Of a DNA stretch of 64,000 nucleotides, positions 49,787 through 64,000 are shown in pieces. Numbering within the stretch: the stretch's first letter is position 1; each line of letters begins with the position of its first letter. The notes under the pieces are model-generated. The model did no database searches. It was given only the letters and a program-made list of their open reading frames with translations, and was not told where the DNA came from. The DNA is from Acidocella aminolytica 101 = DSM 11237. GTDB taxonomy: Bacteria; Pseudomonadota; Alphaproteobacteria; Acetobacterales; Acetobacteraceae. The translations under genes were made by a program, and so were the position numbers. The stretch spans positions 1 to 64,000 of the forward strand of contig NZ_FQVJ01000012.1 in the NCBI RefSeq assembly GCF_900129125.1. Direction: 5' to 3'.

Positions 49787-50533
49787 TTAAACCTCCACTC
49801 TCGCCGCCCCATCCCCGCGCCACCAGCGTAGCTTTGTTACATCCACCAGCGTCTCACCGTCCAAATTGTGCCAGTCGTCACGTGTGCCTGGGGGCTGGGC
49901 GTAGAGCGTTTCAATAGCAGGCCAGCGGTGAAAGAGGGACCAGGTCCAGACGCGGTGGCGCAGATAGATGGCCCGTAGGCGCCGGGCGAGTCGAATGTCG
50001 GGGATGGCGGGGCGTTTTTCGGCCCAGAGCACGGTCGGGCTGAGGGCGCGGACGAGTGGCAAGGTGAGCGGGGCCATGTAGTTTGAAAACCAGATGGTGA
50101 AACCCAACTCTTTTTGAAGATCCGTGACGGCGCGGTGGAGTTGGATATGTTCCGGATGGCCATACTCGCCCCAGGGATTGTGGGTGTAAACATCCGTGAC
50201 GCCGGTCAGGATAGGCCGGAGTTTTGCGAGAAGGGTAGCGAAATTGGCGTCGTAACGGGACCTAGCCGCGGGATCTGTAATGGCGATGCCGGTTGGGGTG
50301 AGGGTTGGGGTTTGCCAATCCACAAATAAACGCGTGCCGCTCTCCGGGATGGCAAGGTTGATGAGACGCGGCAGCTTCAACGCTGCCACGGCGCGGGCGC
50401 GGGCTTCGGCTTTTTCCGGCCTGGCGTAGGGGGCACCGTAGCAGAGCACCACCGGATCCGCCGCCTCCATGGCGGAACTCAGCCAGAGAATCTCATCGTC
50501 GGGGTGGGCGGCGACGATGACAGCGCGGGTCAT
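49787..50533 (-). CDS. PIG-L family deacetylase
   Basis: A 248-residue zinc de-N-acetylase. The motif AAHPDDE (residues 9-14, supplying His and Asp ligands) and NPWGEYGHPEHIQLH (the third ligand His) are both intact. The family includes GlcNAc-phosphatidylinositol deacetylase of GPI anchors and MshB of mycothiol synthesis, both acting on GlcNAc linked to inositol. It is translationally coupled (ATGA) to the GT4 gene and lies in the same run as serine palmitoyltransferase and close to myo-inositol-phosphate synthase, which suggests a GlcNAc-inositol-lipid substrate. BshB and LmbE-type roles are alternatives. Confidence 0.88.
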   Translation of the reverse strand: MTRAVIVAAHPDDEILWLSSAMEAADPVVLCYGAPYARPEKAEARARAVAALKLPRLINLAIPESGTRLFVDWQTPTLTPTGIAITDPAARSRYDANFATLLAKLRPILTGVTDVYTHNPWGEYGHPEHIQLHRAVTDLQKELGFTIWFSNYMAPLTLPLVRALSPTVLWAEKRPAIPDIRLARRLRAIYLRHRVWTWSLFHRWPAIETLYAQPPGTRDDWHNLDGETLVDVTKLRWWRGDGAARVEV

Positions 50534-51699
50534 CTCGCGGCCTGCCGTGCGGCCGCGCCAGATGCTTCGCGCGAGATGAGCAGTTCGTCGTAAATATCCT
50601 CCAGCGCCGCGGTCTGGCGGCGAATGTCGAACAGATGTTCCACCCGGTTGCGGGCCGCCATGCCCATGCGGTGACGTAAGGGCGGGTTGGCCAGCAAAGT
50701 GCCCATGGCAATAGCCAGAGAGTCCGCGTCGCGCTCAGGCACCAGGAAGCCGGTTTCGCCCTCGGCAATGCCTTCCGGGATGCCACCCACACGCGCGCCG
50801 ATGCCGGGCACGCCAGTTGCGGCGGCTTCCAGCATCACCATGCCCAGACCTTCTTCCCGCCCGGAATGGGTTTTGATGCTGGGCAGGACGAGCATGGCGG
50901 CGCGGCGCATCCAACCCAGAACCTCGACGTGCGGGCGGGCGCCGAGAAAGTCGATCCGGTCGGCAAAGCCGGTTTCAGCCGCCAGCCTGTGCAGTTTTTT
51001 ACGCAGCTTGCCGTCACCGATGATGACTAGCCGGGCGAAGGGGTGCTGCGGAGCGATCTGGGCAAAGGCGCGGATGAGGCCGTCCGTGCCTTTCACCTCC
51101 TCCAGCCGAGCGACGTGGAGGATCAGTGGCTCCTCCTGTGCGGGGGTTCGCGGGGCGATGGCGCTGGTGTCTACACCAATATAATGCACGCGCACACGCT
51201 CGGGCGGGAAGTTGAGGGCAAGCAGCTTCTCACGCAGGAAACTGGAGGCGGCGAGGAACAGCCCACCTTGCTGCGCCAGACGCCCGCGCCCCATCGCGTA
51301 CCGGATCCAGGCCGGGTTGGCGAGGAGGCCGAGAGGGGAGAGCGTGGCATCAAACCCATGAAAGGTGGTAACGAGCGGCACGCCAAGCTGGGCGGCCAGA
51401 GGCAGGGCGTATACGCCCTCCACCCCGAAATGAGCGTGGAGGAGGTCCGGGCGGCGACCTTCCAGCCGGTAGAGGTACGGATGGGGACTGGCGGAGAGCA
51501 TGTGCCAGACGGCGGGAAGCAGGCGCATTTGCGGCGCGAGATCCTCCAGCGCCAGAGACTCAGCCTCGTTGGGCGCGGCGCCGTAGCGCAAACGGCCAAG
51601 GTAAAGCGGGCGGTAGCGCTGGAGCCGCTCCGCCTGCTGGGCAATGAAGGGCTCCGAGAGCTTGAACAAATTATGCCGGAAAATGCCGATCTGGCGCAT
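50530..51699 (-). CDS. Glycosyltransferase family 4
   Basis: A 389-residue GT-B retaining glycosyltransferase. The acceptor half has LLHAHFGVEGVYALPLAAQL and VTTFHGFDATLS; the donor half has LHVARLEEVKGTDGLI and EEGLGMVMLEAAATGVPGIG with the E-x7-E motif. It overlaps the PIG-L gene and begins 23 bases after serine palmitoyltransferase. A GT4 plus PIG-L pair recalls MshA-MshB and PIG-A/PIG-L, where GlcNAc is first added to inositol and then deacetylated. Confidence 0.88.
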   Translation of the reverse strand: MRQIGIFRHNLFKLSEPFIAQQAERLQRYRPLYLGRLRYGAAPNEAESLALEDLAPQMRLLPAVWHMLSASPHPYLYRLEGRRPDLLHAHFGVEGVYALPLAAQLGVPLVTTFHGFDATLSPLGLLANPAWIRYAMGRGRLAQQGGLFLAASSFLREKLLALNFPPERVRVHYIGVDTSAIAPRTPAQEEPLILHVARLEEVKGTDGLIRAFAQIAPQHPFARLVIIGDGKLRKKLHRLAAETGFADRIDFLGARPHVEVLGWMRRAAMLVLPSIKTHSGREEGLGMVMLEAAATGVPGIGARVGGIPEGIAEGETGFLVPERDADSLAIAMGTLLANPPLRHRMGMAARNRVEHLFDIRRQTAALEDIYDELLISREASGAAARQAAR

Positions 51700-51722
51700 C
51701 CGTACTTCGCGCGGGCCGGGGA

Positions 51723-52943
51723 TTATTTGGCCGCCGCGAGGGCCGGTGTCTCCGGCAGCAGCCCCAGCCCCTTACCGACGTCCGCGAAGAGGTTGATCGC
51801 ATGGTCGATCTGGGCCGGGCTGTGTGCCGCGCTAACGCTGGAGCGCAGCAAGGCAAGCCCTTTGGGCGTAGCCGGGGGCAGACTGACATTGGTGTAAAGT
51901 CCGGCCTTGAGCAAAGCCGCCCAGAAGCCGAACGCAGCCTCTGGCGAGGGCATTATGGCCGAGACGACGGGGCTGGGCTCGGGACCGAGCGTGAAGCCCA
52001 GCTGCGCCAGCCCCCGATAAAGACGCGCCGCGTTAGCGTTGAGGTCGGCGCGCAGCTCAGGCCGGGCGCGCAACTGCTGCAGGGCGGCCAAGGTGGCCGC
52101 GATGTTGGCGGGCGGCAGGGAGGCAGTGAACATATACGGGCGGGAGACGACGCGCAGGATATCTGCGCCCTCCATATCCGTGACCGCGAAGCCGCCGACG
52201 CCTGCGAGGCTCTTGGAGAAGGTGCCGACGATGAAATCCGCGTCCGCCTCAATGCCCGCCTGCTCGGCCAAGCCACGGCCGGTGGCGCCCAGCACGCCTA
52301 GGGAGTGAGCTTCGTCCACCACCAAATACGCGCCATATTCGCGTTTCACGGCGGCAAACTCGCGTAAGGGGGCAGTGTCGCCCAGCATGGAGTAAATGCC
52401 CTCGACGATGATGACTTTGTCGCCCGGCTCGTCCGCTAGGCGGCGGAGGCGGTTGGCGAGGTCGTCCGGGCTGTTATGGCGGAAACGCGTGACCTGGGCA
52501 TAGCCAAGGCGCGCGCCGTCATAGATGCTGGCGTGGGAGTCCGCGTCCAGCAGCAGATGGTCGCCCTTGCCCGCGAGGGCGGAGATAATGCCGAGATTGG
52601 CCTGGTAGCCGGTGGAGAACACCATGCCGTGCTTGCGGCCATAGAAATCCGCCAGCGCCTCCTCCAGCCGCTTGTGGCTGCCATAACTGCCATTGGCGAT
52701 GCGCGAGCCGGTGGTGCCGGTGCCCGCCGCGGTGGAGGCGGCGTTGGCGGCCTCAATCACCAGCGGGTCATACGTCAGGCCGAGATAGTTGTTGGTGCCG
52801 AGCAGCAGGGTTTGCCGCCCGGCAATAATGGCCTCGGTGGGGGAGAGTACATCGTCGAACGGCACGTTGAAGGGGTTTGCGCCAGCCTCCTCCAACTGGC
52901 GGTATTGGGCCGCCAGCGGGGCGTACTTATCGAGCAGCGCCAT
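51723..52943 (-). CDS. spt: Serine palmitoyltransferase
   Basis: A 406-residue PLP enzyme of the alpha-oxoamine synthase family, which condenses serine with an acyl thioester to 3-oxosphinganine, the first step of sphingolipid synthesis. The N-terminus DKYAPL...GANPFNVPFDDVLSPTEA and LLGTNNYLGLTYDP match bacterial Spt rather than BioF or HemA. D210 and H213 (VVDEAHS) hold the cofactor and K244 in GTFSKSLAGVGG forms the Schiff base. It starts four bases after the stop of a dedicated acyl carrier protein, as in Caulobacter and Sphingomonas relatives, which supports the Spt over the BioF reading. Confidence 0.92.
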   Translation of the reverse strand: MALLDKYAPLAAQYRQLEEAGANPFNVPFDDVLSPTEAIIAGRQTLLLGTNNYLGLTYDPLVIEAANAASTAAGTGTTGSRIANGSYGSHKRLEEALADFYGRKHGMVFSTGYQANLGIISALAGKGDHLLLDADSHASIYDGARLGYAQVTRFRHNSPDDLANRLRRLADEPGDKVIIVEGIYSMLGDTAPLREFAAVKREYGAYLVVDEAHSLGVLGATGRGLAEQAGIEADADFIVGTFSKSLAGVGGFAVTDMEGADILRVVSRPYMFTASLPPANIAATLAALQQLRARPELRADLNANAARLYRGLAQLGFTLGPEPSPVVSAIMPSPEAAFGFWAALLKAGLYTNVSLPPATPKGLALLRSSVSAAHSPAQIDHAINLFADVGKGLGLLPETPALAAAK

Positions 52944-52947
52944 GGTC

Positions 52948-53199
52948 TTAGGCGGCTTGTTTCAAACGCTGGACGGTGGCGATGAGGTCGCCCAGCGTCT
53001 CCACCTCGGCGATTTTGTCCAGGGGCACGGAGATATCGAGCTTGTCCTCGATCTCCATGACGAAATCCATCACGGCGACGGAGTCGAGGCCCAGATCCTC
53101 GATGATGTGGGTACTGTCGGAGAGCGGACGAGATTGCGGCAGGGCGGCACGCAGCGTCTCAAAGATGATCTCACGGATTTCGTTGGCCTGATCAGACAT
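52948..53199 (-). CDS. Acyl carrier protein of the sphingolipid pathway
   Basis: An 83-residue ACP with the attachment serine S40 in EDLGLDSVAVMDFVMEIED. It differs from the fatty-acid AcpP of this window and precedes spt in the same operon. In other bacteria an ACP next to spt supplies the acyl chain. It is the first gene of the minus-strand run acp-spt-GT4-PIG-L. The 225-base spacer to the divergent lptF gene must hold both promoters; I saw no clear motif in it. Confidence 0.9.
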   Translation of the reverse strand: MSDQANEIREIIFETLRAALPQSRPLSDSTHIIEDLGLDSVAVMDFVMEIEDKLDISVPLDKIAEVETLGDLIATVQRLKQAA

Positions 53200-53424
53200 A
53201 TGGCTGCGCGCAGCTCCTCTGCTGTTTCATGCACGCCAGCCACGCGGGGGGTGGCTCCTGACAATCGTGCAGGAAAAACTATACAATTCACCGGCACTTC
53301 TATTACTGAGCGTACACCGCATTGTCACGGGGCTTATGACCAGCTCATGGCGCCCTTGCATCCGCGTGTATGGTCTGGCTGGGTAGTTCGGACCACTTAA
53401 GCCGGAGAGATTTGGTTTGGCGCC

Positions 53425-54588
53425 TTGAAGACAGACAGATACTTGCTTGCTGAAATCGCGCGGCCCTTTGCGGCGGTGCTAGGGATTCTGGCCTTGCTGT
53501 TCGCGGGATACAGCCTGACGCGTATACTCTCGGACGCGGTGAGCGGGCTGTTGCCGGTGGGGGCCATTGCCGCGCTGACCTCGTTGAAGGTGCTGATCGC
53601 GCTGGATGTGCTAATCCCGATTTCGCTGTTTATCGCGGTGGTGGCGGGGTTTGGGCGGTTGCAGGCCGATAGCGAGGTAACAGCCATGCAGGCGCTGGGC
53701 ATGGGGCCGCGCCAGCTTTTGCGCCCGGTGCTGCGGCTGGCGCTGGGGCTGGCCGTGCTGGTGGCGTGCTTGTCGATTTTTGTGCGGCCCTGGGCATACG
53801 CCACCTCTCACAATATTACCCGCCACGCCGCCGTGGCGCTGAATGTCAACGCGATGGAGCCGGGGACCTTCTATGCCAGCCAGGATGGGCGGGAGGTGAT
53901 TTTTCTGGGCCGCCGGGCCGGGCCGCACGCCCCCGCGCAGAATGTGTTTGTGGCCAAGCGGCGTGGCAGCCATGTCGAGGTGATTTCCGCCGCCACCGCT
54001 ACCCCGGCTGTTAAGGGCGCGGACGGGCAGCGCAATGTACACCTCTCCGGCGCGCATGTGTATGAGTTCGACCGGAGCAATCCGGCCAGCGATGAGTCCC
54101 TGCAGGCGGCGGGGATGAATGTGAACCCGGACACCGCCAAGCTGGCCCCCGTGCGATACAGCCCGGTGGCGGCTAGCACGGGGCATTTGCTGGCCTCGCG
54201 CGACCCGGCGGATATTGCTGAGCGGCAATGGCGGTTTTCGACCGGGCTTTCCACCCTGCTCTTGGCTCTGCTGGGCGCGATTTTAAGCCGCGGCCGCCCG
54301 CGCCAGAACCGCTATGCGCGGTTTGGACCGGCGATTCTGGCATATTCGGCCTATTATCTGCTCTGCACCACGGCCCGTACCTGGGTGGAACATGGCCAAG
54401 TGGGGCGGTTGCCGGGGTTGTGGTGGGCGCCGGCTTTGCTGGTGCTGGCCATGCTGCTGGTCTGGTATGGCCCCGCCTTGCGGCGCCGGTTCCGCGCTCC
54501 TCCCAATGCACCGCCGCCCATGCCGAACCCGCGCCAGGCAGCCCAGCCCGTAAGCTGGCGCCCCGCCAGCAGCCAAGATGCTGCTTGA
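53425..54588 (+). CDS. lptF: LptF-like permease
   Basis: A 387-residue protein with helices 1-3 at the N-terminus (MKTDRYLLAEIARPF...), a periplasmic beta-jellyroll middle and three helices at the end, the layout of LptF/LptG. GSHVEVISAA and QWRFSTGLSTLLLALLGAILS are family-like. These subunits, with LptB and LptC, lift LPS from the inner membrane. The only plausible start is the TTG at 53425, since an in-frame stop lies 27 bases upstream; the ribosome site is poor. It overlaps lptG by 11 bases. The sphingolipid setting suggests another lipid cargo, but it could be the cell's normal LptF. Confidence 0.85.
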   Translation: MKTDRYLLAEIARPFAAVLGILALLFAGYSLTRILSDAVSGLLPVGAIAALTSLKVLIALDVLIPISLFIAVVAGFGRLQADSEVTAMQALGMGPRQLLRPVLRLALGLAVLVACLSIFVRPWAYATSHNITRHAAVALNVNAMEPGTFYASQDGREVIFLGRRAGPHAPAQNVFVAKRRGSHVEVISAATATPAVKGADGQRNVHLSGAHVYEFDRSNPASDESLQAAGMNVNPDTAKLAPVRYSPVAASTGHLLASRDPADIAERQWRFSTGLSTLLLALLGAILSRGRPRQNRYARFGPAILAYSAYYLLCTTARTWVEHGQVGRLPGLWWAPALLVLAMLLVWYGPALRRRFRAPPNAPPPMPNPRQAAQPVSWRPASSQDAA

Positions 54589-55672
54589 CCGTTATATCGG
54601 CTGGACGGTCTGCCGCGCCTTCCTGCTGATTACCGTCGGCCTCACGGCCTTGTTCAGCCTGCTCAGCTTTGTTGAGCAACTCGGGCTGATCGGCCAGGGC
54701 AATTACAAGCTACGGGATGCGCTGCTTTATACGCTGCTCACGGCGCCGGACCGGGTGCTGCAACTCGCCCCGGTATGCATGTTACTGGCCTCGTTGATGG
54801 GGCTAGGGGCGTTGGCCAAACATTCGGAACTCACGGCCTTCCGCAGTTTTGGCGCGTCGCAGGCGCGGATTATCGGCGCGGTGGTGAAGCTGTGCGTGCC
54901 GATTATTTTCGGGCTGTTCTTTCTGGCACAATTCGTGATTCCGCCCGCCCAGCAGGCCGCCCAGCGCGAGCAGGCCGCCGCTTTGGGGGATACGCTGCCG
55001 GGCCTCTCCAATGGCGGGTTCTGGGCGCAGAAAAACGGGGTGTTTTTGAATGTGCAGAGCTTCGCGGGCGGGGCGGTGCTGCATGGGGTCTCGATCTTCA
55101 CCTTCAAGCCGAAAGGGGAGCTGCACAGCTTTATTGAAGCCGATACGGCCGAGCCGCAGCCGGATGGCACCTGGAAGCTGAGCGGTGTGACCCGCGATGT
55201 GATCGCCAACGGTCAGACCCAGGAAGATACGCCCACCAGCCTGAGCTGGACGCCGTTTCTGACCACCAAGCAATTGAAATTACTGGCTCTGCCACCGGAG
55301 ACCATGCCGCCTTTGGCGCTTTACAGCTATGTGCGGCTGCTCAAGCACCAGCATCAGGAAGCGCTGCGTTATGAGCAGAGTTTCTGGAACATGGTGGCAA
55401 TTCCGCTCTCTTTGATTGGCATGGCGATCATCGCGGCACCGTTTGTGTTTGGGCCGCAGCGCTCCGGCGGAGCGGGGCGGCAGATTGTGATTGGCGCGCT
55501 GCTGGGCATGGTGTTTCTGCTGGTGCAGCAGATCACCGGTTATCTGGGGCTGCTGCTGGCGGTGAACCCGGCTTTTACAGCCCTGGCGCCTTCTATTTCA
55601 CTGCTGTTGCTGGGGGGCTGGATGCTGGAGCGCAACCATATCAAGCTGCGCCCCCGGATCAGCCGCGCATGA
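54578..55672 (+). CDS. lptG: LptG-like permease
   Basis: A 364-residue partner of the LptF-like protein. It has the same 3+3 helix layout: MLLDRYIGWTVCRAFLLITV at the start, a periplasmic domain around residues 110-240 and helices in NMVAIPLSLIGMAIIAAPFV and beyond. LptG couples to LptB through a cytoplasmic helix with the pattern AKHSELTAFRSFGASQ, which is intact. It converges with the CDP-alcohol phosphotransferase, overlapping its end by 14 bases. Confidence 0.88.
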   Translation: MLLDRYIGWTVCRAFLLITVGLTALFSLLSFVEQLGLIGQGNYKLRDALLYTLLTAPDRVLQLAPVCMLLASLMGLGALAKHSELTAFRSFGASQARIIGAVVKLCVPIIFGLFFLAQFVIPPAQQAAQREQAAALGDTLPGLSNGGFWAQKNGVFLNVQSFAGGAVLHGVSIFTFKPKGELHSFIEADTAEPQPDGTWKLSGVTRDVIANGQTQEDTPTSLSWTPFLTTKQLKLLALPPETMPPLALYSYVRLLKHQHQEALRYEQSFWNMVAIPLSLIGMAIIAAPFVFGPQRSGGAGRQIVIGALLGMVFLLVQQITGYLGLLLAVNPAFTALAPSISLLLLGGWMLERNHIKLRPRISRA

Positions 55673-56543
55673 CCTGCTTCAAGAAGCTGTTGTAATGCAC
55701 TTTCTGCGCTTCCAGAAGAATGAGCAGGATGGCGCTGAACCCAATGATCTCGAACAGGAAATAGAGCAGCGGCAGCTTTACCAGGGCCGCGAGAAACAGG
55801 CCCAGCGTGCGGTAATTGGCGCAGAGCACGCCCCAACGGCGGATGACCGGCGCGAAATATTCCCGATAGGCGGCGCGCAACGTAGCTTCTTGCCGGGGGC
55901 TGGCGATAAGCTGTGCGGCGAACGCCTGGTGAAAATCGGCCGCCCCTGCAGAAGCCCAGAGCTGCACGCGTGCATAAAGCTGGTGCAGATACCCGGCAAT
56001 GCCCCTGGGTTTTGCGTCCAGCTTGGGCAAGGCGGCGGATTGGCGGCCCCAGCCCAGAAAATTATAATCCTGGCGCTGCATCTCATAAGCGGCGGATTGC
56101 ACCGCGTGGGCGATGCCTGACAGCGCTACCAGCGCCCACACCCAGCCGCCCATCGAAGCGCTCATGGACAGGGCCAGTCCCACATAAACGGCGGTGAAGG
56201 TGACGTAGTCGCAGATGCCGTCCAGCACCTTGCCGAGCTCGGAATAGGTTTTGGTGAGGCGGGCAAGTTGGCCGTCTGCCCCGTCCATCACATGCCAGGC
56301 GAGCATTAGCGCGAAGCCGAGGCCCGCACAGCCACCAATACCATAGAAATGATATGCCACCCCGGCGAGGATGCCGCAGCCCATGCCGATGAGCGAGACC
56401 ATGTTGGGCGTGATGGCCAGCTGAGCGAAAAGCGGTACCAGCCGGGCGGAGATGGGGTGGATGAAATAAAGGTTCGTGGGGTCTTCTATCTCATAGGTCC
56501 GTCGGACCGGATCCGCGTCGACGCGCCCCGCGGTGTCGCTCAT
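55659..56543 (-). CDS. CDP-alcohol phosphotransferase, probable inositol-phosphate transfer to lipid
   Basis: A 294-residue membrane enzyme with about six helices. The full catalytic signature D-G-x2-A-R-x8-G-x3-D-x3-D is present at D90, G91, A94, R95, G104, D108, D112. The family moves a phospho-alcohol from a CDP carrier to a hydroxyl. The preceding two genes encode an inositol-1-phosphate cytidylyltransferase-like enzyme and inositol-phosphate synthase, so CDP-inositol is the likely donor, as for archaeal di-inositol-phosphate synthase. Ceramide is the inferred acceptor. A phosphatidylinositol-type enzyme using CDP-diacylglycerol is the main alternative. Confidence 0.85.
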   Translation of the reverse strand: MSDTAGRVDADPVRRTYEIEDPTNLYFIHPISARLVPLFAQLAITPNMVSLIGMGCGILAGVAYHFYGIGGCAGLGFALMLAWHVMDGADGQLARLTKTYSELGKVLDGICDYVTFTAVYVGLALSMSASMGGWVWALVALSGIAHAVQSAAYEMQRQDYNFLGWGRQSAALPKLDAKPRGIAGYLHQLYARVQLWASAGAADFHQAFAAQLIASPRQEATLRAAYREYFAPVIRRWGVLCANYRTLGLFLAALVKLPLLYFLFEIIGFSAILLILLEAQKVHYNSFLKQVMRG

Positions 56544-56545
56544 GA

Positions 56546-57262
56546 TTAGAGACGTCCTTCATCCAGCAGCGCTTCGGCCTTCCCGAAGGCGATCGGGTCA
56601 TCGACATCCACCCAGAGGCGGTCACCGATATCCAGCACACGCGCGCGCCCCCATTCGGCCAGCACATTCATGGCGCCGGAGATGCTGTCGTCACCGCGGG
56701 CCTGGGATTCTTCCAGCGCGTCGAACATAGCCGAGGTGCAGTGAAACACGCCGGTGTCGAAGCAGTTATAATCCCGGATGACCTTGCCGATATGTTTGAG
56801 CTCCGTGCCCTCGCATTTCACGCGGGTCACGTCGTCCGGGTCGTTCAGCGGGTTGTCGATATTGAAATCCACGCCTAGCGTGACCGTGCCCGGCTCAGGC
56901 GGGGTTGCGATCATGCGGCGCAGGATTTCCGGGTCCACCAGATGATCGCACATGGTGAGCAGAAAGGGCTCATCCAGATATTGCTTGGCGGTCAGCACGG
57001 AGACGCCGTTGGCCTTGGCCCAGGCGCGGTTATAGATGCGGGTGATATGAATGCCGGAACGGCGGGAAAACGCGCCCAGCCTCTCTTGCAATTCCTCGGC
57101 ATGGTAGCCGGTGACGACGAGAAACTCGTCGATCCCGGCTTCCTTGCCATTGGCGATCACGCGTTCGATTAGCGGCACGCCACGAATAGGGATCAGCGGC
57201 TTCAGCGCCCCCTTTTCACGCAGGCGTGTACCCTGCCCGGCCGCGACGATCAGCCCTTTCAT
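56546..57262 (-). CDS. Nucleotidyltransferase, likely CTP:inositol-1-phosphate cytidylyltransferase
   Basis: A 238-residue enzyme starting [18 protein letters not shown], then [15 protein letters not shown] (nucleotide-binding lysine). Later motifs [36 protein letters not shown] and RLWVDVDDP resemble inositol-1-phosphate cytidylyltransferases of hyperthermophiles. It would make CDP-inositol from CTP. It overlaps ino1 by four bases and abuts the CDP-alcohol phosphotransferase by two, so the three are one operon. A sugar-phosphate nucleotidyltransferase is the alternative, but the neighbours favour inositol phosphate. Confidence 0.8.
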
Positions 57263-58395
57263 TCGGCGGCGGTCACCGCCAGGGCCGGACGGCAGGTGCG
57301 GATAAACTCTTCCGTCATCTCGCAAGCAATATCGTCCGTGTATTGGGCGGGAGGGTGCTTACAGAAATAAGCGGAGGGGCCGGCGAGCACGCCGCCGACA
57401 CCGGCTTCCAACGCCAACTTGCAGCAACGGATCATGTCGATGACCACACCGGCGGAGTTTGGGCTGTCCTGTACGGAGAGGCGCAGCTCGATATCCATCG
57501 GCACGTCACCGAATTGCAGACCTTCCATGCGGATGAAGGCGATCTTGTTGTCGTTCTGCCAGGGCACGTAATCGGACGGGCCGATATGGATGTTCTCTTT
57601 CTCCATCCGCTTTTTGGTGACGGCCTGGACCGCCTCTGTCTTGGAGGTTTTCTTGGAGGCCAGACGGTCCTGGTTCTTCATGTTCAGGAAGTCTGTATTA
57701 CCGCCGGTATTGAGCTGGTAGGTGTGCAGCAGCTTGACGCCACGCTTAGCGAACAGGTCCGTCAGCACGCGGTGGGTGATGGTGGCGCCGACCTGGGATT
57801 TGATGTCATCACCGATGATCGGCAGATTGGCGGCGGCGAACCGATCCGCGTAGACTTTATCGCTGGCGATAAAAACCGGCATATTGTTGACGAAACCGCA
57901 GCCAGCTTCCAGCGCGCAATCCGCATAGAAGCGCGCGGCCTGCTCGGACCCAACAGGCATGTAGTTCAGCAGCACGTCGGCCTTGGTGGCCTTGAGTTCG
58001 GCGACGATCTCAGCCTTGGTCAGCTCCTGGGCCGAGGACCGCACGAAGGTCCGGTCCTCGTCGTAATTGGCCATATGCTCGGAAATACCGTCCAGCACCT
58101 GACCCATTTTCACGGTCACGCCCATCTCCGGGACGTTTGGCTCGAACACCTTGGTGCAGTTGGGCTTGGCGAAGATGGCGCGGCTGACATCCTGGCCGAC
58201 CTTGCGGGCATCCACGTCGAACGCGGCAACCACGCTGATATCGTTCGGCTGGTAGCCGCCGATCTCGGTATGCATCAGGCCCACCACACCCTCGGCGCAA
58301 CGCTCCGGCGTGTAATAATAAATTCCCTGGATCAGGGAGCTGGCACAATTGCCAATGCCAGCAATCGCGATGCGGATGCCGCCATTCTTTGCCAT
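57259..58395 (-). CDS. ino1: Myo-inositol-1-phosphate synthase
   Basis: A 378-residue NAD+-dependent enzyme turning glucose-6-phosphate into inositol-1-phosphate. It shows the cofactor site [18 protein letters not shown], the conserved [12 protein letters not shown] and [17 protein letters not shown], and the lysine-rich active segment [19 protein letters not shown]. It is the short prokaryotic form, not the 500-residue eukaryotic one. GAGG lies six bases before the ATG at 58395; a TTG two codons earlier is possible. It leads the operon ino1-cytidylyltransferase-CDP-alcohol phosphotransferase. Confidence 0.95.
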
Positions 58396-58736
58396 AATCA
58401 ACCTCGTCTCTCGCTAAAATCTGCCAGGGAGCAGGACGCCATCATACGCGCCAGGACCAGACACATAGGCGCAACCCAGCTACGACAGGGGGGCTGCCAA
58501 ATGAGCGGACCAATCCGGGATTTATCTCCGTACCTCAACCCTGAAACCAAAAGCCTCCTGCCGCTTGCAACCCTGCCGGAAAACGGCACCAGAGCCCCCG
58601 CTTTCACGGAAAAGCGTCCAGACGGACTGCGGGCAATCAGGATGAATCCGAACTCTGCGCGGTAAGTAATCCAGGGTCCTACCGCTTTCCAACTTGTGTC
58701 GCAAGTATGACATAGATGTAAGCGACGGAAGTTTCT
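58396..58736. other. Intergenic stretch upstream of ino1
   Basis: About 340 bases without a confident gene. One 54-codon plus-strand frame (58501-58665) has a G-rich ribosome site but no recognisable features; a minus-strand frame (58522-58740) starts with TTG and overlaps the preceding gene's stop. Either might be real, but nothing decides it. The ino1 promoter probably lies here. Confidence 0.5.
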
Positions 58737-59699
58737 TCAACCCATCTCAGGCAAAAGCGCGCACACTAGGGCGCTGTAGAGTTGAGTCTGGCGGTGGGCG
58801 CGGACGTAATCAGGGCTGATCCGGGCCACATAGGGCTTGGTGCGGACCGAGCCGTACCAATGCGCCACTCTTGTTTGCGGGCTGAGCACCCGGCCCACCG
58901 CGGCCGGGGCGTTACGGCACGGGCGGAACCAATGTTCTGAGATTTCAGGTGGTAACGGGTAGAAACAGGCGGGCTGGTGGATCACCAGGCCCGGCATGGG
59001 CGCGGCATCCAGAAGCGTTTGGTAGAGGTCTGGCCCCAGCGCGTAGGGACTGGGGGTCTCATGGTCCGGCAGGGCCGCCATGGCGCGCAGCACGGCGACG
59101 AAAAGCGGCGCGCCGGGGACAGCACCCATCACGGCATTATTGACGGCGGACACATACCACCCCTCCACTGCACGGAAGGCCCGCCAGCCGCCAGGGGTGC
59201 GGCGCAGAGTCTTGCGCAACACATCCAACCCCAGATGCTTGCTCCAGACCAGCGGCGAACGGGACTGATACACCCAATGCGGCCAGACGATCCGCTCCGC
59301 GCCGATGAACTGAGAGGCGTTCAGCAGCGGGGCAAGCGGGGCGGTGGTGAGGGTGTCAACATCCATATAAACGCCGCCCTCGGCATAAAGGATGGCTGCG
59401 CGCAGCAAATCCGCGCGCTGCACCGGGCTTTGCAGCCGGACATAAAGGCGGGTCAGCGCGTCATCCAGCTTCAGCGCTGCCTGTACGGGGGCCAGCAACG
59501 CTGGGGGCGAGAGACGCCTGAAGCGCACCCCTACCCTGGCCAAGGCGCGCGGCACCGGACCGTCGGCCAAGTCGTCCGTATGATGCAAAACCACCTCGCG
59601 CAGCCCGCTCTGAGCGGCGGCGGAGAGCAGCGCAAAGCCATGCGCCCACGCAAGCTCTGGGCCAATCCAGCAAAAATGCAGTATTCCGGGAACGGGCAT
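58737..59699 (-). CDS. DXD glycosyltransferase, GT32-like
   Basis: A 320-residue soluble transferase starting MPVPGILHFCWIGPELAW, typical of 'sugar-binding region containing DXD' enzymes. The donor site is RADLLRAAILYAEGGVYMDV with DTLTT after it; the DVD acids bind the metal and nucleotide-sugar. The family includes enzymes that glycosylate inositol-phosphoceramide in yeast (Sur1/Csg1 type, GT32). This fits the sphingolipid surroundings, although bacterial members also make capsule or LPS. The ribosome site is weak. Confidence 0.82.
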   Translation of the reverse strand: MPVPGILHFCWIGPELAWAHGFALLSAAAQSGLREVVLHHTDDLADGPVPRALARVGVRFRRLSPPALLAPVQAALKLDDALTRLYVRLQSPVQRADLLRAAILYAEGGVYMDVDTLTTAPLAPLLNASQFIGAERIVWPHWVYQSRSPLVWSKHLGLDVLRKTLRRTPGGWRAFRAVEGWYVSAVNNAVMGAVPGAPLFVAVLRAMAALPDHETPSPYALGPDLYQTLLDAAPMPGLVIHQPACFYPLPPEISEHWFRPCRNAPAAVGRVLSPQTRVAHWYGSVRTKPYVARISPDYVRAHRQTQLYSALVCALLPEMG

Positions 59700-59861
59700 G
59701 ACAGAAAAGCAATCCAGCAATCGGCAAGAGACGGGCTTGAATCAGCCTGCTAGGCGGCACGGCGCCGCACTGTCAACCGCGCCATACGGCAAAGCCATTG
59801 CCATTCCCATGCGACTCTGTTAGCGCCAACCAATGACCGTCAATGGTAAATTCCAGGCAAT

Positions 59862-61601
59862 ATGACTGAGCCTACCCCGACTCACCATAATGGGCTGGTT
59901 AAGCGACTCGCTGATTTCACGACCATCGCCGAGGCCCTGGATTATGCCGCGCAAGGCCGAACCGGGCTGAATTTCTATTCTGGCAAGGGGGTTCTCACCG
60001 AAACCTTGCCTTATGCCACCCTGCGCGCGCAGGCGCTTCTGCTGGCCCGGCAGCTGCTGGGCACCGGGCTGCAGCCGGGAGACCGGGTGGGGCTGCTGGC
60101 AGAAAGCGATGGGGATTTCGCCCGCGCCTTTTTTGCCTGCCAATATGCCGGGCTGGTGCCCGCTCCCCTGCCCTTGCCCGCCGCTTTTGGCGGGAAAGAG
60201 GGATATATCTCCTTTCTGCGCCGGATGATCCAGGGCGCTGACGCCCATGCCGTGTTTGGCCCCGCCGTGCTGGCCGACTGGCTGGCCGAGGCGGTTGAAG
60301 GGCTGGAGCTGAAATGCGCCGGTGTGGTTTCCGCGCTGGACGGCGCGCCGATGGTGCCCGAGGCCGCCCTGCCCGCGCCGGAATCGCTGGCGTATCTGCA
60401 ATTCTCCTCCGGCAGCACGCGCTTCCCGCTGGGGGTGGCGGTGACGCAGACGGCCTTTATGGCCAATGCCCATTACATGGCCAAATACGGCCTGCGGGTG
60501 AATGAGACCGACCGCTGCACAAGCTGGTTACCTTATTATCATGACATGGGGCTGGTCGGGTTTTTGCTGATGCCAATGGCCTGCCAGCTTTCAGTCGATA
60601 TTCTGCCCACGCGGGAATTCGCGCGCCGGCCGCTGCTGTGGCTGCAGTTGATCACCCGTAATAAGGGCAGCATCTCGTTCAGCCCGTCTTTTGGCTACGA
60701 ACTTTGTGCCCGGCGGGCGCGGACAGCCTCAACGGAGGGGATCGACCTGTCCTCCTGGCGGCGGGCCGGGATTGGTGGGGATATGATCCGCCCGGCGGTG
60801 CTGACGCGCTTTGCCGAGCGTTTTGCGGCCAATCTATTCCAGGAAACCGCGTTTATCCCCTGCTATGGCATGGCCGAGGCCACGCTGGCGCTGAGCTTTA
60901 GCCCGGATGGGCAAGGAGCGAGGGAAGACGCGGTGGATGGGCTCGTGCTGGAACGCGAGCATCGCGCCGTGCCCGCCAATGAGACCAGCAAGCGTACCCG
61001 GCATTTCGTGATTTGCGGCCAGATGCTCCCCGAACATGACGTGGAGGTGCGCGGCGCGGATGGCGCGCTGCTGGCCGAGCGCGAGGTAGGGCATATTTTC
61101 GTGCGCGGGCCGAGCCTGATGCTGGGCTATTTCGGCGCGCCGGAGGAAACCGCGCGCGTGCTCTCCGCCGAAGGCTGGCTGGATACGGGGGATCTTGGGT
61201 ATCTGATCGACGGCCAACTGGTGATTACCGGGCGGGCGAAGGATCTGGTGATCGTGAATGGCCGCAATGTATGGCCACAGGATCTGGAATGGGCCGCCGA
61301 GGCGGAAGTGCCCAGCCTGCGCAGTGGGGATGTGGCGGTGTTCTCGGTGGATAATGGCGAGGATGAGGAGGTTGTTGTTCTCGTCCAGTGCCGTGTGACC
61401 GACCCCGCCGCGCGTGAGGCGCTGGCATTGGAGCTGACGCGGTTTTTCCGCGGGCGGCAAGGGCTGGAAACGCGCGTGGTGCTGGTGCCGCCGCATAGCC
61501 TGCCACAGACATCGTCCGGTAAGCTCAGCCGCTCCCGCGCCCGAATGATGTATCTGGACGGCGCGTTTCTACCCCGCGCCACCGCCACCGCCGCGGAATG
61601 A
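59862..61601 (+). CDS. Fatty acyl-AMP ligase
   Basis: A 579-residue adenylating enzyme that activates a fatty acid, most likely for loading onto the nearby ACP. It has LQFSSGSTRFPLGVAVT (a variant of the phosphate loop), CYGMAEATLALS, DTGDLGYLIDGQLVITGRAK and the end LPQTSSGKLSRSRAR with the catalytic lysine. The large N-terminal domain and FLPYYHDMGL-like motif (SWLPYYHDMGLVGFLL) mark it as a fatty acyl-AMP/ACP ligase, like AasR of the Caulobacter sphingolipid cluster. It overlaps the reductase gene by four bases. Confidence 0.88.
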   Translation: MTEPTPTHHNGLVKRLADFTTIAEALDYAAQGRTGLNFYSGKGVLTETLPYATLRAQALLLARQLLGTGLQPGDRVGLLAESDGDFARAFFACQYAGLVPAPLPLPAAFGGKEGYISFLRRMIQGADAHAVFGPAVLADWLAEAVEGLELKCAGVVSALDGAPMVPEAALPAPESLAYLQFSSGSTRFPLGVAVTQTAFMANAHYMAKYGLRVNETDRCTSWLPYYHDMGLVGFLLMPMACQLSVDILPTREFARRPLLWLQLITRNKGSISFSPSFGYELCARRARTASTEGIDLSSWRRAGIGGDMIRPAVLTRFAERFAANLFQETAFIPCYGMAEATLALSFSPDGQGAREDAVDGLVLEREHRAVPANETSKRTRHFVICGQMLPEHDVEVRGADGALLAEREVGHIFVRGPSLMLGYFGAPEETARVLSAEGWLDTGDLGYLIDGQLVITGRAKDLVIVNGRNVWPQDLEWAAEAEVPSLRSGDVAVFSVDNGEDEEVVVLVQCRVTDPAAREALALELTRFFRGRQGLETRVVLVPPHSLPQTSSGKLSRSRARMMYLDGAFLPRATATAAE

Positions 61602-62539
61602 GCCCCTCCCCGCTGGCCGCCATAACCGGCGGAACGGGGTTTTTGGGGCTGCATCTGGTACCCGCCCTGGCACAAGCCGGGTTCCGGTTGCGACTGCTTG
61701 CCCGGCGTGACTTGGCACATCCGGCATTTAAGGACATTGCGTTTGAGAGCGTACGCGGCGCGCTGGAGGATGAAGCCGCCCTGGATGCGCTGGTGCGGGG
61801 CGCTGATGTGGTGATCCATGCCGCCGGGCTGACCAAGGCACGCGGGCGGGCGGCATTTTTGCGCGCCAACCGGGATGGCACAGAAGCTGTGGCCCATGCC
61901 GCGCGGCGCGGGGCGCCTGGGGCGCGGTTTCTGTTGGTTTCATCCCTGGCCGCGCGGGCACCGCGTCTTTCGAATTACGCGTTCAGCAAGGCTGAAGCGG
62001 AGGCTCGGACCCTGCGCATATTTGGCAATGCGGCGGCGCAGTGCGCAATTATTCGGCCGCCTGCGATCTATGGGCCGTGGGACCGGGATATCTTGCCGCT
62101 GATCCGGGCCAGCGCACGCGCGCTGACGCCGGTTCTGGGCAACGGCAGGGCGGCGGTGATTCATGCGCGCGATGCCGCTGGGGCAATTGCAGCGCTGGCG
62201 GGAGACAAATTCCGGCCGGGCTGCTTCACTTTGGCGGATGATACACCCGAGGGGTATGAGATGCGCGCCTTGATGGCGGCGGCGGCACAAGCCACGGGCG
62301 GACCGGGGCAGTTTATCCATTTACCTAAGGCGCTGGTGCTCTCCGCCGGGTTTCTGGCCGGGGTGGTGGGCAGGCCACCAATCTTCACGCTAGGCAAGGC
62401 GCGGGAGCTGCTATACCCGGATTGGTCCGTCTCGCCCGAGGAGTTGCTACCCCGGGAGATTTATACGCCACGTATCTCCCTGGCGGCCGGGTTCGCAGAG
62501 ACGGTGGCCTGGTACCGGCAGGCGGGCTGGATGAAATAG
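61598..62539 (+). CDS. NAD(P)-dependent epimerase-type reductase, CerR-like
   Basis: A 313-residue extended short-chain dehydrogenase starting PLAAITGGTGFLGLHLVPAL with a Rossmann site; ADVVIHAAGLTKARG and SNYAFSKAEAE (Tyr/Lys as YxxxK) are conserved. In Caulobacter a gene of this family beside the acyl-ACP ligase reduces 3-oxo-ceramide to ceramide. It is coupled to the ligase here, so I infer the same role. Sugar epimerisation is less likely in this context but not excluded. Confidence 0.82.
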   Translation: MSPSPLAAITGGTGFLGLHLVPALAQAGFRLRLLARRDLAHPAFKDIAFESVRGALEDEAALDALVRGADVVIHAAGLTKARGRAAFLRANRDGTEAVAHAARRGAPGARFLLVSSLAARAPRLSNYAFSKAEAEARTLRIFGNAAAQCAIIRPPAIYGPWDRDILPLIRASARALTPVLGNGRAAVIHARDAAGAIAALAGDKFRPGCFTLADDTPEGYEMRALMAAAAQATGGPGQFIHLPKALVLSAGFLAGVVGRPPIFTLGKARELLYPDWSVSPEELLPREIYTPRISLAAGFAETVAWYRQAGWMK

Positions 62540-62543
62540 TCGC

Positions 62544-63416
62544 TCAGACCTCGAAACTTTCGGGCGGCACGGGAGACTTCACACTCATTGCGCTGCCGGC
62601 GGAAGCGGCCATGATGCAGAGCATGGCACCCCATTGCAGCAGGGTCAGACTCTCCCCCAGCACCACGAACCCCGCGAGCGCGGCGATGGCGGGGGCAGCA
62701 CTGAGTAGAATGGAAAAGGCTCGAGAAGAGAGACGCTTCATCGCCTCCATCTCCAGCGAGTAAGGCACGGCGCTGGAGAGCAGCGCCACCGCCAAAGCGA
62801 GCCCCAGCTCCCACGGACGCAGGGCGGAAAAATGCAGAACCGAGATGCCGAGCGGCGCCACGATAAGGGCGGCCACAGCCATGCCCCAACTCACGGCATC
62901 CGCGCCCAGCTTACCGGCAACACGTTTGCCGGAGACGATGTAAAGTGCCCAGCACAAAGCTGCCCCCAGCGCGAAGGCGATGCCCACTGGGTTCAGCTTG
63001 CTATGCACATGCAAGGGTAGCAGCAGCGCCAAGCCGGCAGCCACCAGGGCCAGCCACCAAAAGTCCCGCGGGCGGCGGGAGTTGAGCAGCACGATGACCA
63101 GCGGCCCGGTGACTTCAATACCCACCGCAATGCCTATGGGGATCCGCAGAAACGCCTGGTAGATAAACAAATTCATACCCGCCAGCATGGTGCCGTACAG
63201 AATCAAGGCTGGGCGTGTGGCACCGGGAGGCACACGGCGCCAGGGGCGGCGCAGCATGGCCAGCAGGCAGGCTGCGAACACTACGCGCAGGGCCGTTACC
63301 CCCAGCGGATTGATCTCCGCGAACAAGAGCTTCGCGCAGGCTGCGCCGAGATTGACTGAAATCTGCGAGGCCAGCACCGCGCCCAGCCCCGCCAGTGTGG
63401 CACTGGGGCGCTTCAT
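62544..63416 (-). CDS. EamA/DMT transporter, RhtA-like
   Basis: A 290-residue permease with ten hydrophobic helices in two EamA repeats. NPLGVTALRVVFAACLLAML and ALCWALYIVSGKRVAGK match the RhtA threonine/homoserine exporter branch. Substrate unknown here. It sits between the reductase (converging, four bases apart) and the ceramide-synthase-like gene upstream, with which it may form an operon (8-base gap). Confidence 0.87.
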   Translation of the reverse strand: MKRPSATLAGLGAVLASQISVNLGAACAKLLFAEINPLGVTALRVVFAACLLAMLRRPWRRVPPGATRPALILYGTMLAGMNLFIYQAFLRIPIGIAVGIEVTGPLVIVLLNSRRPRDFWWLALVAAGLALLLPLHVHSKLNPVGIAFALGAALCWALYIVSGKRVAGKLGADAVSWGMAVAALIVAPLGISVLHFSALRPWELGLALAVALLSSAVPYSLEMEAMKRLSSRAFSILLSAAPAIAALAGFVVLGESLTLLQWGAMLCIMAASAGSAMSVKSPVPPESFEV

Positions 63417-63424
63417 GCGCTGGC

Positions 63425-64000
63425 TTACAACCCAGCTTCAAACACGCGGTAGGTTTTATACGGCTTGGCGTCCAGGCTCTCGATCATGCGACGCATGGGC
63501 ATGTTGTCTTCAAGAATCCAGGACAGCTCGATATGGGTGTAGCCCATTTTCAGCCCTTCGCGGCGGACCATGTCGATCATCAGATAGGGCAGCAGACTGC
63601 CGATCATGTCCTTGGCAGCGGCGCGGCGGACCCCCATCAGCGGCACGCGGGCGGTTTTGACACCCGCCACCTTCAGCCGCCAGAGCAGCTTGACCCAGCC
63701 GAAGGGAAGAATCTTGCCGTCCAGCCCATTGATGGCCTCATTCAAGTTGGGGAGGGCGATCATGAAGGCTACCGGCTCACCATTGCGCTCTACCAAGCTA
63801 GTCATACGCGGGTTGAGCAGCGGTTTCAGCGATTTGGCGAGATAATCCGTCTCGGTCTCGGTCAGCGGCACAAAGCCCCAATTATTCGCCCAGGCATCGT
63901 TGAAGATGGAGGTGACGTTCTTGATCTCCTCCTTGATGCGCTTCATGTCCAGGGGCCGCACGGTGATGCCCGATGGCAACTGGCGGGAGAGCAGGCGCTG
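63425..64000 (-). CDS. Bacterial ceramide synthase-like GNAT acyltransferase, C-terminal part
   Basis: The last 191 codons of a gene that continues beyond the right edge. The visible region has NDAWANNWGFVPLTETETDY, then VERNGEPVAFMIALPNLNEA, ILPFGWVKLLWRLKVAG and MGVRRAAAKDMIGSLLP, and ends with ELSWILEDNMPMRRMIESL and YRVFEAGL. This is the GNAT-like family that includes Caulobacter bCerS, which N-acylates 3-oxosphinganine. The substrate fits the neighbouring spt and reductase genes. Related GNAT proteins of unknown role exist, so the name remains an inference. Confidence 0.75.
   Translation of the reverse strand, partial: QRLLSRQLPSGITVRPLDMKRIKEEIKNVTSIFNDAWANNWGFVPLTETETDYLAKSLKPLLNPRMTSLVERNGEPVAFMIALPNLNEAINGLDGKILPFGWVKLLWRLKVAGVKTARVPLMGVRRAAAKDMIGSLLPYLMIDMVRREGLKMGYTHIELSWILEDNMPMRRMIESLDAKPYKTYRVFEAGL

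Follow-up and report, generated by a model that had tools for sequence, protein, structure and literature searches.

This locus raises the question of which lipid is made where genes for a bacterial ceramide adjoin genes for an inositol head group, and by which route the two halves would be joined. It lies in Acidocella aminolytica 101 = DSM 11237; the window, the whole stretch of DNA analysed, comprises 64,000 nucleotides (NZ_FQVJ01000012.1, 1-64,000, forward strand). An ino1-cytidylyltransferase-CDP-alcohol phosphotransferase operon has Spt, an acyl carrier protein (ACP), a fatty acyl-AMP ligase, an SDR and a tandem-GNAT protein all at most 15 kb away. Scanning of the locus proteins with Pfam and NCBIfam HMMs confirmed the gene content of the original prediction (spt, ACP, ligase, reductase-like SDR, LptF/LptG, GT4, PIG-L, GT32, ino1, cytidylyltransferase-like and CDP-alcohol phosphotransferase genes). 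GT4 and PIG-L had been placed between spt and ino1; LptF/LptG do stand there, but GT4 and PIG-L both lie to the left of spt. The features are:

46444..47676, + strand: GT4b, second GT4 glycosyltransferase (Pfam; start codon by eye, ORF opens at 46384)
47673..49121, + strand: Wzx-like polysaccharide/lipid flippase (PF13440, Pfam; start by eye)
49787..50533, - strand: PIG-L type N-deacetylase (PF02585)
50530..51699, - strand: GT4 glycosyltransferase, coupled to PIG-L (PF00534)
51723..52943, - strand: serine palmitoyltransferase Spt (NF047599)
52948..53199, - strand: dedicated ACP, AcpR-like (PF00550)
53425..54588, + strand: LptF of the inositol-linked pair (PF03739)
54578..55672, + strand: LptG of the inositol-linked pair (PF03739)
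55659..56543, - strand: CDP-alcohol phosphotransferase (CDPAP), proposed CDP-inositol:ceramide inositolphosphotransferase (PF01066)
56546..57262, - strand: CTP:inositol-1-phosphate cytidylyltransferase-like protein (IPCT; NF041135)
57259..58395, - strand: Ino1, myo-inositol-1-phosphate synthase (PF01658 / TIGR03450)
58737..59699, - strand: GT32-like glycosyltransferase with DxD (PF04488; start by eye)
59862..61601, + strand: fatty acyl-AMP ligase / acyl-ACP synthetase, AasR-like (NF006624)
61598..62539, + strand: SDR, CerR-like (PF01370, Epimerase family)
62544..63416, - strand: EamA/RhtA-like transporter (Pfam and NCBIfam)
63425..64000, - strand: bCerS/CerS-like tandem GNAT protein, C-terminal part (gene runs to window 64555)
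64555-65340, beyond the window end: fatty-acid hydroxylase

The module extends past the region originally predicted, on the left to the second GT4 and the Wzx-like flippase (46444-49121) and on the right to the fatty-acid hydroxylase. The EamA/RhtA-like transporter, matched in one of 30 CDPAP-locus stretches (L075), is probably a passenger.

Spt scores 651.8 bits on NCBIfam NF047599 and the fatty acyl-AMP ligase 852.9 bits on NF006624, both above the cut-offs (500 and 600); the dedicated ACP and the acyl-AMP ligase of the Caulobacter-type ceramide set are both present. Lysine 244 of Spt (in GTFSKSLAG) and the serine of the AcpR-like ACP (in DLGLDSVAV) are presumably functional residues. The SDR, whose start overlaps the ligase stop (ATGA), adjoins the ligase and is likened to CerR by family and position. 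The bCerS-like GNAT gene stood up in part: the C-terminal 191 aa fall within the window, the full gene (L002:3426-4556(-), window 63425 to 64555) gave a protein without matches in Pfam (E ≤ 0.001) or NCBIfam (E ≤ 0.1), and the AlphaFold model (mean pLDDT 86) has a tandem GNAT fold. bCerS itself belongs to the GNAT family.

The Ino1-IPCT-CDPAP cassette is translationally coupled, with an overlap of the Ino1 stop and IPCT start (ATGA) and a gap of 2 nt between IPCT and CDPAP. Ino1, the sole PF01658 match in the host genome, scores 443 bits on TIGR03450 (below the cut-off of 638). The best NCBIfam match of the cytidylyltransferase is the IPCT/DIPPS model NF041135 (115 bits, below the cut-off of 580); its top three PDB matches (2xme, 4mnd, and 4jd0) are inositol-phosphate cytidylyltransferases or a fusion containing one, 4jd0 being named as such an enzyme in PMC12275187. 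R13, K21, and D106 are conserved without exception in 19 aligned IPCT sequences and correspond to an R, a K, and a D of the A. fulgidus IPCT; the catalytic motif of CDPAP (D87, G88, D90, G91, A94, R95, G104, D108, and D112) is invariant in all 28 aligned. The host genome contains only three PF01066 proteins. Fold matches of the CDPAP model are AF2299, PIP synthases, DIPPS, and CEPT1, and these matches of a predicted structure are silent on the identity of the acceptor. CDPAP has weak NCBIfam matches to archaetidylinositol-phosphate synthase (50 bits, cut-off 180) and PIP synthase (39 bits, cut-off 170), and in the scan of the locus the PIPSynBT1523 model scored 21 bits (cut-off 350). The original prediction drew no line between CDP-inositol and CDP-DAG routes.

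Because the cytidylyltransferase most resembles inositol-1-phosphate cytidylyltransferases, the head-group route is likely of the Kennedy type, in which CDP-inositol would be formed and inositol phosphate then passed to ceramide. Judged from its genes, the locus probably makes and exports an inositol-phosphate ceramide by one-step transfer from CDP-inositol, and the product would probably be further glycosylated. We infer all substrates, the order of steps, and the exported cargo as follows. Spt would form the 3-oxo base together with the dedicated ACP and the acyl-ACP synthetase; the GNAT protein would add the second chain and the SDR would then reduce the product, in the order proposed for Caulobacter. 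Ino1 would supply inositol-1-phosphate, the cytidylyltransferase would convert it to CDP-inositol, and the membrane-bound CDPAP would transfer inositol phosphate from CDP-inositol, at the cytoplasmic face and in one step, to ceramide (or 3-oxo-ceramide) at its C1 hydroxyl, without PI and without ceramide kinase. The inositol may then be decorated by GT32, GT4, and PIG-L, and a private LptF/LptG pair would pull the finished lipid out towards the outer membrane.

A survey of 299 family genomes (CDPAP called at E ≤ 1e-40) supports the co-occurrence that the original prediction had proposed to look for. CDPAP occurs in 26 genomes and Spt in 99; Spt is found in 25 of the 26 CDPAP genomes versus 74 of 273 others (Fisher 2e-12, uncorrected for kinship, and relatedness of the genomes inflates such counts), or, by genus, in 12 of 12 versus 38 of 102 (2e-6). 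In G512, the sole CDPAP genome lacking Spt, the CDPAP stretch is interrupted by a stop at residue 184. Ino1 is present in 25 of the 26 (22 in the stretch, three more by family search), and in 27 of the 30 loci CDPAP is accompanied by the cytidylyltransferase. IPCT and Ino1 are both missing from the CDPAP stretches of L014, G246, and G413, and a family search found no Ino1 anywhere in the G413 genome. Linkage was counted over the 30 CDPAP loci, with Spt or ligase in the fetched stretch taken as a ceramide gene. It exceeds chance, since 17 loci hold at least one ceramide gene in the same stretch as CDPAP (Spt in 15, leaving out G636, whose Spt is on another contig; ligase in 16; SDR in 16); the other 13 hold neither. 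Co-occurrence and linkage point to ceramide as the probable acceptor of CDPAP.

A DAGK_cat gene from the Spt locus of G503 served as a proxy for ceramide kinase and had no match in the host genome at E ≤ 1e-10. The proxy was also unmatched in 17 of the 26 CDPAP genomes, all six g1 genomes with CDPAP among them, and it was matched in 18 of 19 tested Spt-positive genomes without strong CDPAP; by coordinates, 25 of the 27 hits are no further than 4 kb from spt. Weak matches (E 6e-15 to 2e-37) occur on both sides (6 of 18 outside CDPAP genomes, 3 of 9 inside), so the counts overstate the sharpness of the split. In 16 Spt-positive genomes the inositol cassette is the only one present of the two phospho-head-group gene sets tested. 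The route here is likely neither the AUR1 type of Bacteroides nor the ceramide-kinase type of Caulobacter.

The host genome encodes four PF03739 proteins, as two pairs; by sequence, the LptF/LptG of the locus are a paralogous pair additional to the presumed LPS pair. LptG of family genomes forms three clades, with the inositol-linked LptG set apart from the presumed LPS and Spt-linked ones; the inositol-linked clade is represented in all 26 CDPAP genomes versus 1 of 273 others, and it tracks CDPAP, not spt. The pair looks like an exporter tied to the inositol head group, and its existence as a clade of its own following the inositol genes is new here. A paralogue bound to the inositol genes, and not to spt in general, lay beyond the view of the original prediction.

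The GT32-like protein has invariant D116 and D118 (DxD) in 17 of 17 aligned sequences and is encoded in 16 of 30 CDPAP loci; GT4b is found in 17, often linked to the inositol cassette, and the Wzx-like protein, a candidate flippase for the lipid, in 14. PIG-L occurs in 12 of the 30 versus none of 20 Spt-centred stretches (L083-L102). NCBIfam matches of the GT4 at 50530..51699 include the MshA and BshA models, all under cut-off. The GT32 and the GT4/PIG-L pair suggest glycosylation of the lipid, and from the locus as a whole, bacteria may have their own form of the inositol-ceramide lipids known from fungi and plants. It is possible, though doubtful, that the likeness extends to a full counterpart of their glycosyl-inositol-phosphoceramides, arrived at by other chemistry, with one-step CDPAP transfer, hexosylation by GT32, HexNAc addition and deacetylation by GT4/PIG-L (giving a GPI-anchor-like GlcN-inositol core), and head-group-specific LptF/LptG export; bacteria would then operate a number of Lpt bridges in parallel, each for its own class of lipid.

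Several other readings of the cassette have to be weighed. Following the proposals for Rhodothermus and Bacteroides vulgatus, it might combine CDP-inositol with DAG to make a diacylglycerol-based phosphatidylinositol or a glycosylated form, its position beside the sphingolipid genes then reflecting no more than a shared destination of both lipids, the outer membrane. Published CDP-inositol routes, as described in parts of PMC9246714 and PMC10191378, use DAG-type acceptors; the 13 loci without a ceramide gene in the fetched stretch make diacylglycerol possible as acceptor, and the inositol-type LptG follows CDPAP. Five g318 genomes have spt either on a different contig from the cassette or megabases away; they also match the kinase proxy, and the three examined carry Spt-linked LptFG as well, so the acceptor there could differ. 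Against these points stand the Spt counts in CDPAP genomes, the 16 genomes with the cassette alone of the two sets, and the same-stretch Spt, ligase, and SDR genes, and we regard this reading as unlikely. PI might instead be formed from CDP-inositol and DAG and its phosphoinositol then exchanged onto ceramide by an AUR1- or HAD-type enzyme, as proposed for the B. vulgatus cluster (PMC9246714, in the section on that cluster). Of 12 CDPAP genomes, three, including two with the genus code of the host, have a PAP2_3 (PF14378, AUR1-type) match above cut-off; the host genome has none, and no HAD or PAP2 family was found among the Pfam-scanned locus proteins. An exchange enzyme of unrecognised type might be encoded elsewhere. 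Such a two-step route is very improbable.

The weak matches to archaetidylinositol-phosphate and PIP synthases, and the PIP synthases among the fold matches, would fit a PIP synthase acting on CDP-DAG (or CDP-ceramide) and inositol-1-phosphate, with the cytidylyltransferase serving another purpose. That enzyme's gene, however, sits between ino1 and CDPAP and keeps company with CDPAP in nearly all loci, and the Pfam-scanned locus proteins include no phosphatase family, which leaves this reading slightly less probable still. That the cytidylyltransferase activates some other phosphate, such as phosphoglycerate in the manner of CpgD, with Ino1 serving only the glycosyltransferases or a soluble inositol product, is scarcely credible. 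The Caulobacter phosphoglycerate enzyme CpgD does share 24% identity with the T. maritima IPCT (as given in PMC12275187), but the best matches here are IPCT models and structures, and the gene is coupled with ino1, which itself accompanies CDPAP in all but one genome. An inositol operon making the ceramide head group, as originally predicted, is the best reading, favoured by genome-wide co-occurrence and by the kinase and AUR1-type results; the 13 loci, the distant g318 cassettes, and the DAG-type published routes keep it an inferred one.

Inositol phosphoceramides (PMC9246714, in the part on Bacteroides) and CDP-inositol lipids are already known in other bacteria. If the one-step reading is true, Alphaproteobacteria would gain a genetically defined route to inositol-phosphate ceramide, and a candidate one-step inositol-phosphoceramide synthase would result. 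The sphingolipid route to the outer membrane is described as unresolved, with second Lpt genes proposed in Caulobacter (PMC11324152, in part); an LptG clade that follows inositol genes makes such transport directly testable. Swapping of a head-group module within a conserved ceramide module may be how bacterial sphingolipids diversify.

Among known systems, Rhodothermus marinus reportedly activates inositol as CDP-inositol and converts it to dialkylether glycerophosphoinositol with dialkylglycerol as acceptor; to our knowledge, no sphingolipid genes are involved. Likened by description, it shares the making of CDP-inositol into lipid and differs in the acceptor; its synthesis is mentioned in PMC9246714 and PMC10191378. 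Yeast and fungal Csg1/Csh1 resemble the locus in having a PF04488 glycosyltransferase in an inositol-phosphoceramide pathway, and yeast mannosyl-inositol-phosphoceramide synthase belongs to that family (PMC5225481, in part); its similarity to the locus GT32 is confined to the short PF04488/DxD region, with no sign of common descent of the pathways. In the relevant section of PMC9246714, B. thetaiotaomicron BT_1522-BT_1526 shares MIPS and the inositol-phosphate dihydroceramide product class but uses a PIP synthase, PIP phosphatase, and AUR1-like enzyme. The alternative inositol lipid cluster of B. vulgatus, which makes phosphoinositol dihydroceramide, is likened by description: it combines MIPS, an NTP transferase, and a CDP-alcohol phosphotransferase with a proposed CDP-inositol intermediate, but the proposed exchange from PI to ceramide falls to a HAD hydrolase, and the same section names no spt, LptFG, or GT32 in it. 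Caulobacter crescentus CC_1168-CC_1152, in the part of PMC11324152 that describes it, has the five ceramide gene families, a second LptC/LptF/LptG, and a candidate flippase in one region, with nucleotidyltransferase and CDP-alcohol domain proteins for the head group. Among family genomes, the clade of the Acidocella LptG is distinct from that of the Spt-linked LptG. The Caulobacter head group is phosphoglycerate, begun by ceramide kinase, whereas the Acidocella module, with no kinase match, is Ino1-IPCT-CDPAP.

A gene module of Acidocella aminolytica 101 = DSM 11237 (the host) probably makes and exports an inositol-phosphate ceramide by way of CDP-inositol. The contig is 97,974 bases long and the window is its first 64,000 bases; the module reads from left to right as follows:

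GT4 glycosyltransferase
Wzx-like flippase
PIG-L protein
second GT4 glycosyltransferase
serine palmitoyltransferase (Spt)
ACP
LptF
LptG
CDP-alcohol phosphotransferase (CDPAP)
inositol-1-phosphate cytidylyltransferase-like protein (IPCT)
myo-inositol-1-phosphate synthase (Ino1)
PF04488 glycosyltransferase
fatty acyl-AMP ligase
CerR-like SDR
EamA transporter
tandem-GNAT protein (CerS-like)
L002:4556-5341 (window numbering 64555-65340), fatty-acid hydroxylase gene, beyond the window end and adjoining the GNAT gene

The Ino1, IPCT, and CDPAP genes (the cassette) are co-directional, the first two overlapping by ATGA and the last two standing two bases apart; the ligase and SDR genes overlap by ATGA, and the hydroxylase and GNAT genes by TGATG. 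The GC skew switches sign near 46 kb (window about 44000-48000), at the module's left border. Homologs of the hydroxylase adjoin spt both in genomes with CDPAP and in those lacking it, and the enzyme therefore probably hydroxylates sphingolipids in general. Since many genera share the arrangement, a chance neighborhood of genes was rejected.

Spt and the acyl-AMP ligase both exceed the curated model cut-offs in an NCBIfam profile search. The top NCBIfam model for IPCT is the IPCT/DIPPS enzyme (115 bits, under the cut-off of 580), and its closest solved relatives in the PDB (2xme, 4mnd, and 4jd0) are two inositol-1-phosphate cytidylyltransferases and one fusion holding such an enzyme; 4jd0, labelled in the PDB as a nucleotidyl transferase only, receives its enzyme name in a passage of PMC12275187. 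The same source lists three critical residues of the family, namely R, K, and D. R13, K21, and D106 of the host protein, which are invariant in 19/19 aligned sequences and stand opposite R, K, and D in A. fulgidus IPCT, are, we guess, the residues meant. The class motif of CDP-alcohol phosphotransferases is present in CDPAP (28/28 sequences), whose nearest relatives of a named genus are from Acidocella (79-80% identity), A. facilis with 80% among them. The best fold match of its predicted model (mean pLDDT 91.6) is AF2299, followed by PIP synthases, an IPCT-DIPPS fusion, and CEPT1; for the modeled protein these matches fix the class but leave the acceptor undecided. No family model matched the GNAT protein in profile searches; its predicted tandem GNAT fold fits, but does not prove, a Caulobacter-type ceramide N-acyltransferase.

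Co-occurrence was surveyed in even draws of 299 family genomes and 385 class genomes. With thresholds of E≤1e-40 for CDPAP and E≤1e-125 for Spt in the family draw, and with the weak CDPAP matches of G452 and G599 (E about 5e-11) excluded, CDPAP was found in 26/299 genomes, Spt in 99/299, and both in 25 (Fisher 2e-12, related genomes being treated as independent and kinship ignored). By genus, Spt is present in 12/12 CDPAP genera versus 38/102 overall (hypergeometric 2e-6). The sole CDPAP genome without Spt over the cut-off (G512) has a single match at E≤1e-20, scoring 220 bits, and its CDPAP stretch is interrupted by a stop at residue 184. Spt over the cut-off, CDPAP, and cassette-type LptG are all absent from G663, a genome with the host's genus code. 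In the class draw, 3/385 genomes, including the host, matched CDPAP at E≤1e-20; beyond the family, two class genomes (L072 and L073) hold CDPAP, Spt, ACP, ligase, and SDR in a single stretch.

Thirty CDPAP-bearing loci (26 family genomes, two class genomes, and two named contigs, omitting L006, L008, and L012 as duplicates of L075, L074, and L059) were compared gene by gene, a gene being scored only if it lay inside the stretch retrieved for that locus (7 to 23 kb) and reached 33% identity. The stretches of G636 and G479 are each composed of two contigs, so that in G636 Spt, ACP, LptF, LptG, GT4, and PIG-L come certainly or possibly from the contig without CDPAP. Spt lies in the same stretch in 15 loci, Spt or ligase in 17, and neither in 13; physical linkage is weaker than genome-level co-occurrence.

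Ino1 lies within the CDPAP stretch in 22/26 genomes, and three others (G432, G561, and G631) have it by family search. The Ino1 genes of G561 (L047, about 11106-11423) and G631 (L060, about 15985-16302), 6 to 9 kb from the cassette, were found by Pfam and missed by tblastn with the window's Ino1 (E≤1e-6), and loci of similar content may therefore rely on two distant types of Ino1. CDPAP stands without IPCT and Ino1 in the stretches of L014, G246, and G413; in G246 two Ino1 matches lie elsewhere, and the contig with one of them also bears most of a Spt match; a family search found no Ino1 anywhere in the G413 genome. G413 and G497, both of genus g306, have small genomes of about 2 Mb that encode cassette-type LptG (L069 7351-10498; G497:C1:1370613-1371665), G413 also carrying a divergent CDPAP (37%) and GT4 genes; their lipid may differ from the host's. 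In a Sphingomonadales MAG (L016, 6571-10720), Ino1 and IPCT adjoin two CDPAP-like genes on opposite strands, with no spt match within its 20 kb.

Second LptC/F/G genes have been proposed as outward carriers of Caulobacter sphingolipids (PMC11324152). The host has two LptF/LptG pairs, the other at C91, and the 15 genomes examined have two to four. The window LptG scores 241-798 bits against counterparts in CDPAP genomes (205 in G413) and at most 77 bits against presumed LPS or Spt-linked LptG. A 61-row LptG tree, from a quick search supported by SH-aLRT only and carrying a long-branch warning, separates presumed LPS (14 rows), Spt-linked (16), and CDPAP-type (31) proteins, each set apart by a branch of its own (SH-aLRT 99, 91, and 99), the CDPAP label being the default for rows outside the other two lists and three rows (L103, L109, and L122) being labelled by genome and not as neighbors of CDPAP; repeat entries of a locus were removed, and L110, the fourth pair of G421, is not included. 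Cassette-type LptG occurs in 26/26 CDPAP genomes and in 1/273 of the remaining genomes of the family draw, namely G497, from the genus of G413; it is inside the CDPAP stretch in 25/30 loci (that of G636 perhaps from the second contig), about 13 kb from CDPAP in three g373 genomes, and on another contig in G421. Within genus g318, G425, G595, and G627 have the cassette and three LptF/LptG pairs, whereas G503 has Spt, two pairs, and no cassette; the additional pair therefore accompanies the inositol genes rather than spt. An ordinary LPS pair was rejected for the window because the host has the other pair at C91, of a type presumed to serve LPS, and the tree separates the two; a general sphingolipid pair was rejected for this family because Spt-linked pairs form another group and those three g318 genomes hold three pairs. 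We read the window pair as a candidate exporter matched to the head group.

Among the 30 loci, a PF04488 gene is present in 16, GT4 in 19, and PIG-L in 12; PIG-L is found in 0/20 Spt-centred stretches (L083-L102). The catalytic subunits of mannosyl-inositol-phosphoceramide synthase in yeast also belong to PF04488 (PMC5225481). The similarity of the GT32-like protein to PDB entries, large-toxin and effector entries among them, is weak, local, and mostly in the DxD region, so a sugar chain on the lipid is a guess.

The Caulobacter head-group route starts with ceramide kinase (PMC11324152, PMC12275187), for which a DAGK_cat gene from the G503 Spt locus served as proxy. From the 74 Spt-positive genomes without strong CDPAP, 18 CDPAP-negative ones were chosen manually, as a rule a single genome from each genus, with G452 (weak CDPAP) as a nineteenth. 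The proxy was matched in 18/19 of these and unmatched in 17/26 CDPAP genomes and in all six genomes that share the host's genus code and carry CDPAP; weak matches (E 6e-15 to 2e-37) account for 6/18 outside CDPAP genomes and 3/9 inside, and by coordinates spt is no more than 4 kb away from 25/27 matches (exceptions G445 and G256). Sixteen Spt-positive genomes have the cassette alone of the two phospho-head-group gene sets tested, and nine have both (G413, G421, G425, G554, G595, G627, G629, G631, and G657). G405, the single tested Spt-positive genome with neither, has Ino1 near spt instead (L100: Ino1 187-1263, 51% identical; GNAT 6060-7226; Spt 7333-8544), perhaps a third inositol head-group arrangement. 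In L089 (12645-13361), from a Spt-positive genome with a weak kinase match, an IPCT-like gene (27%) adjoining the acyl-AMP ligase possibly encodes a CpgD-like phosphoglycerate cytidylyltransferase.

The Bacteroides thetaiotaomicron route requires an AUR1-like enzyme (PMC9246714). None over the PF14378 cut-off is present in the host genome; the cut-off is passed in 3/12 CDPAP genomes, including two that share the host's genus code. CDP-inositol is the one remaining for the host locus of three known phospho-head-group routes. Such a route is reportedly used by Rhodothermus with dialkylglycerol as acceptor. It is mentioned in PMC9246714 and PMC10191378, and for B. vulgatus CDP-inositol and DAG followed by a HAD exchanger has been proposed (PMC9246714); Pfam scans of proteins from the locus gave no match to a HAD family. 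Direct transfer from CDP-inositol to ceramide is the simplest reading. The 13/30 loci with no ceramide gene alongside the cassette would suit a diacylglycerol-based inositol lipid, which we consider an unlikely product, and these unlinked loci together with G413 make an acceptor other than ceramide possible. A soluble di-inositol phosphate was set aside on the predicted lipid-export genes and the ceramide linkage. If ceramide is the acceptor, it could be taken in its 3-oxo form: CerR of Caulobacter is periplasmic (PMC11087976), and provided that the host SDR is likewise, the head group may be joined to 3-oxo-ceramide.

Text searches of an open-access library found no paper linking CDP-inositol to an alphaproteobacterial ceramide and no alphaproteobacterial gene set for phosphoinositol ceramide; a text search found no mention of inositol in PMC11334938 or PMC13318209. 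Passages of PMC9246714 describe a Novosphingobium acidiphilum lipid consistent with phosphoinositol ceramide, no cluster being found there, and include an acetic acid bacterium, Acetobacter malorum, in a TLC figure. Phosphoinositol ceramides themselves are reported from Bacteroidetes and Myxococcus (PMC9246714).
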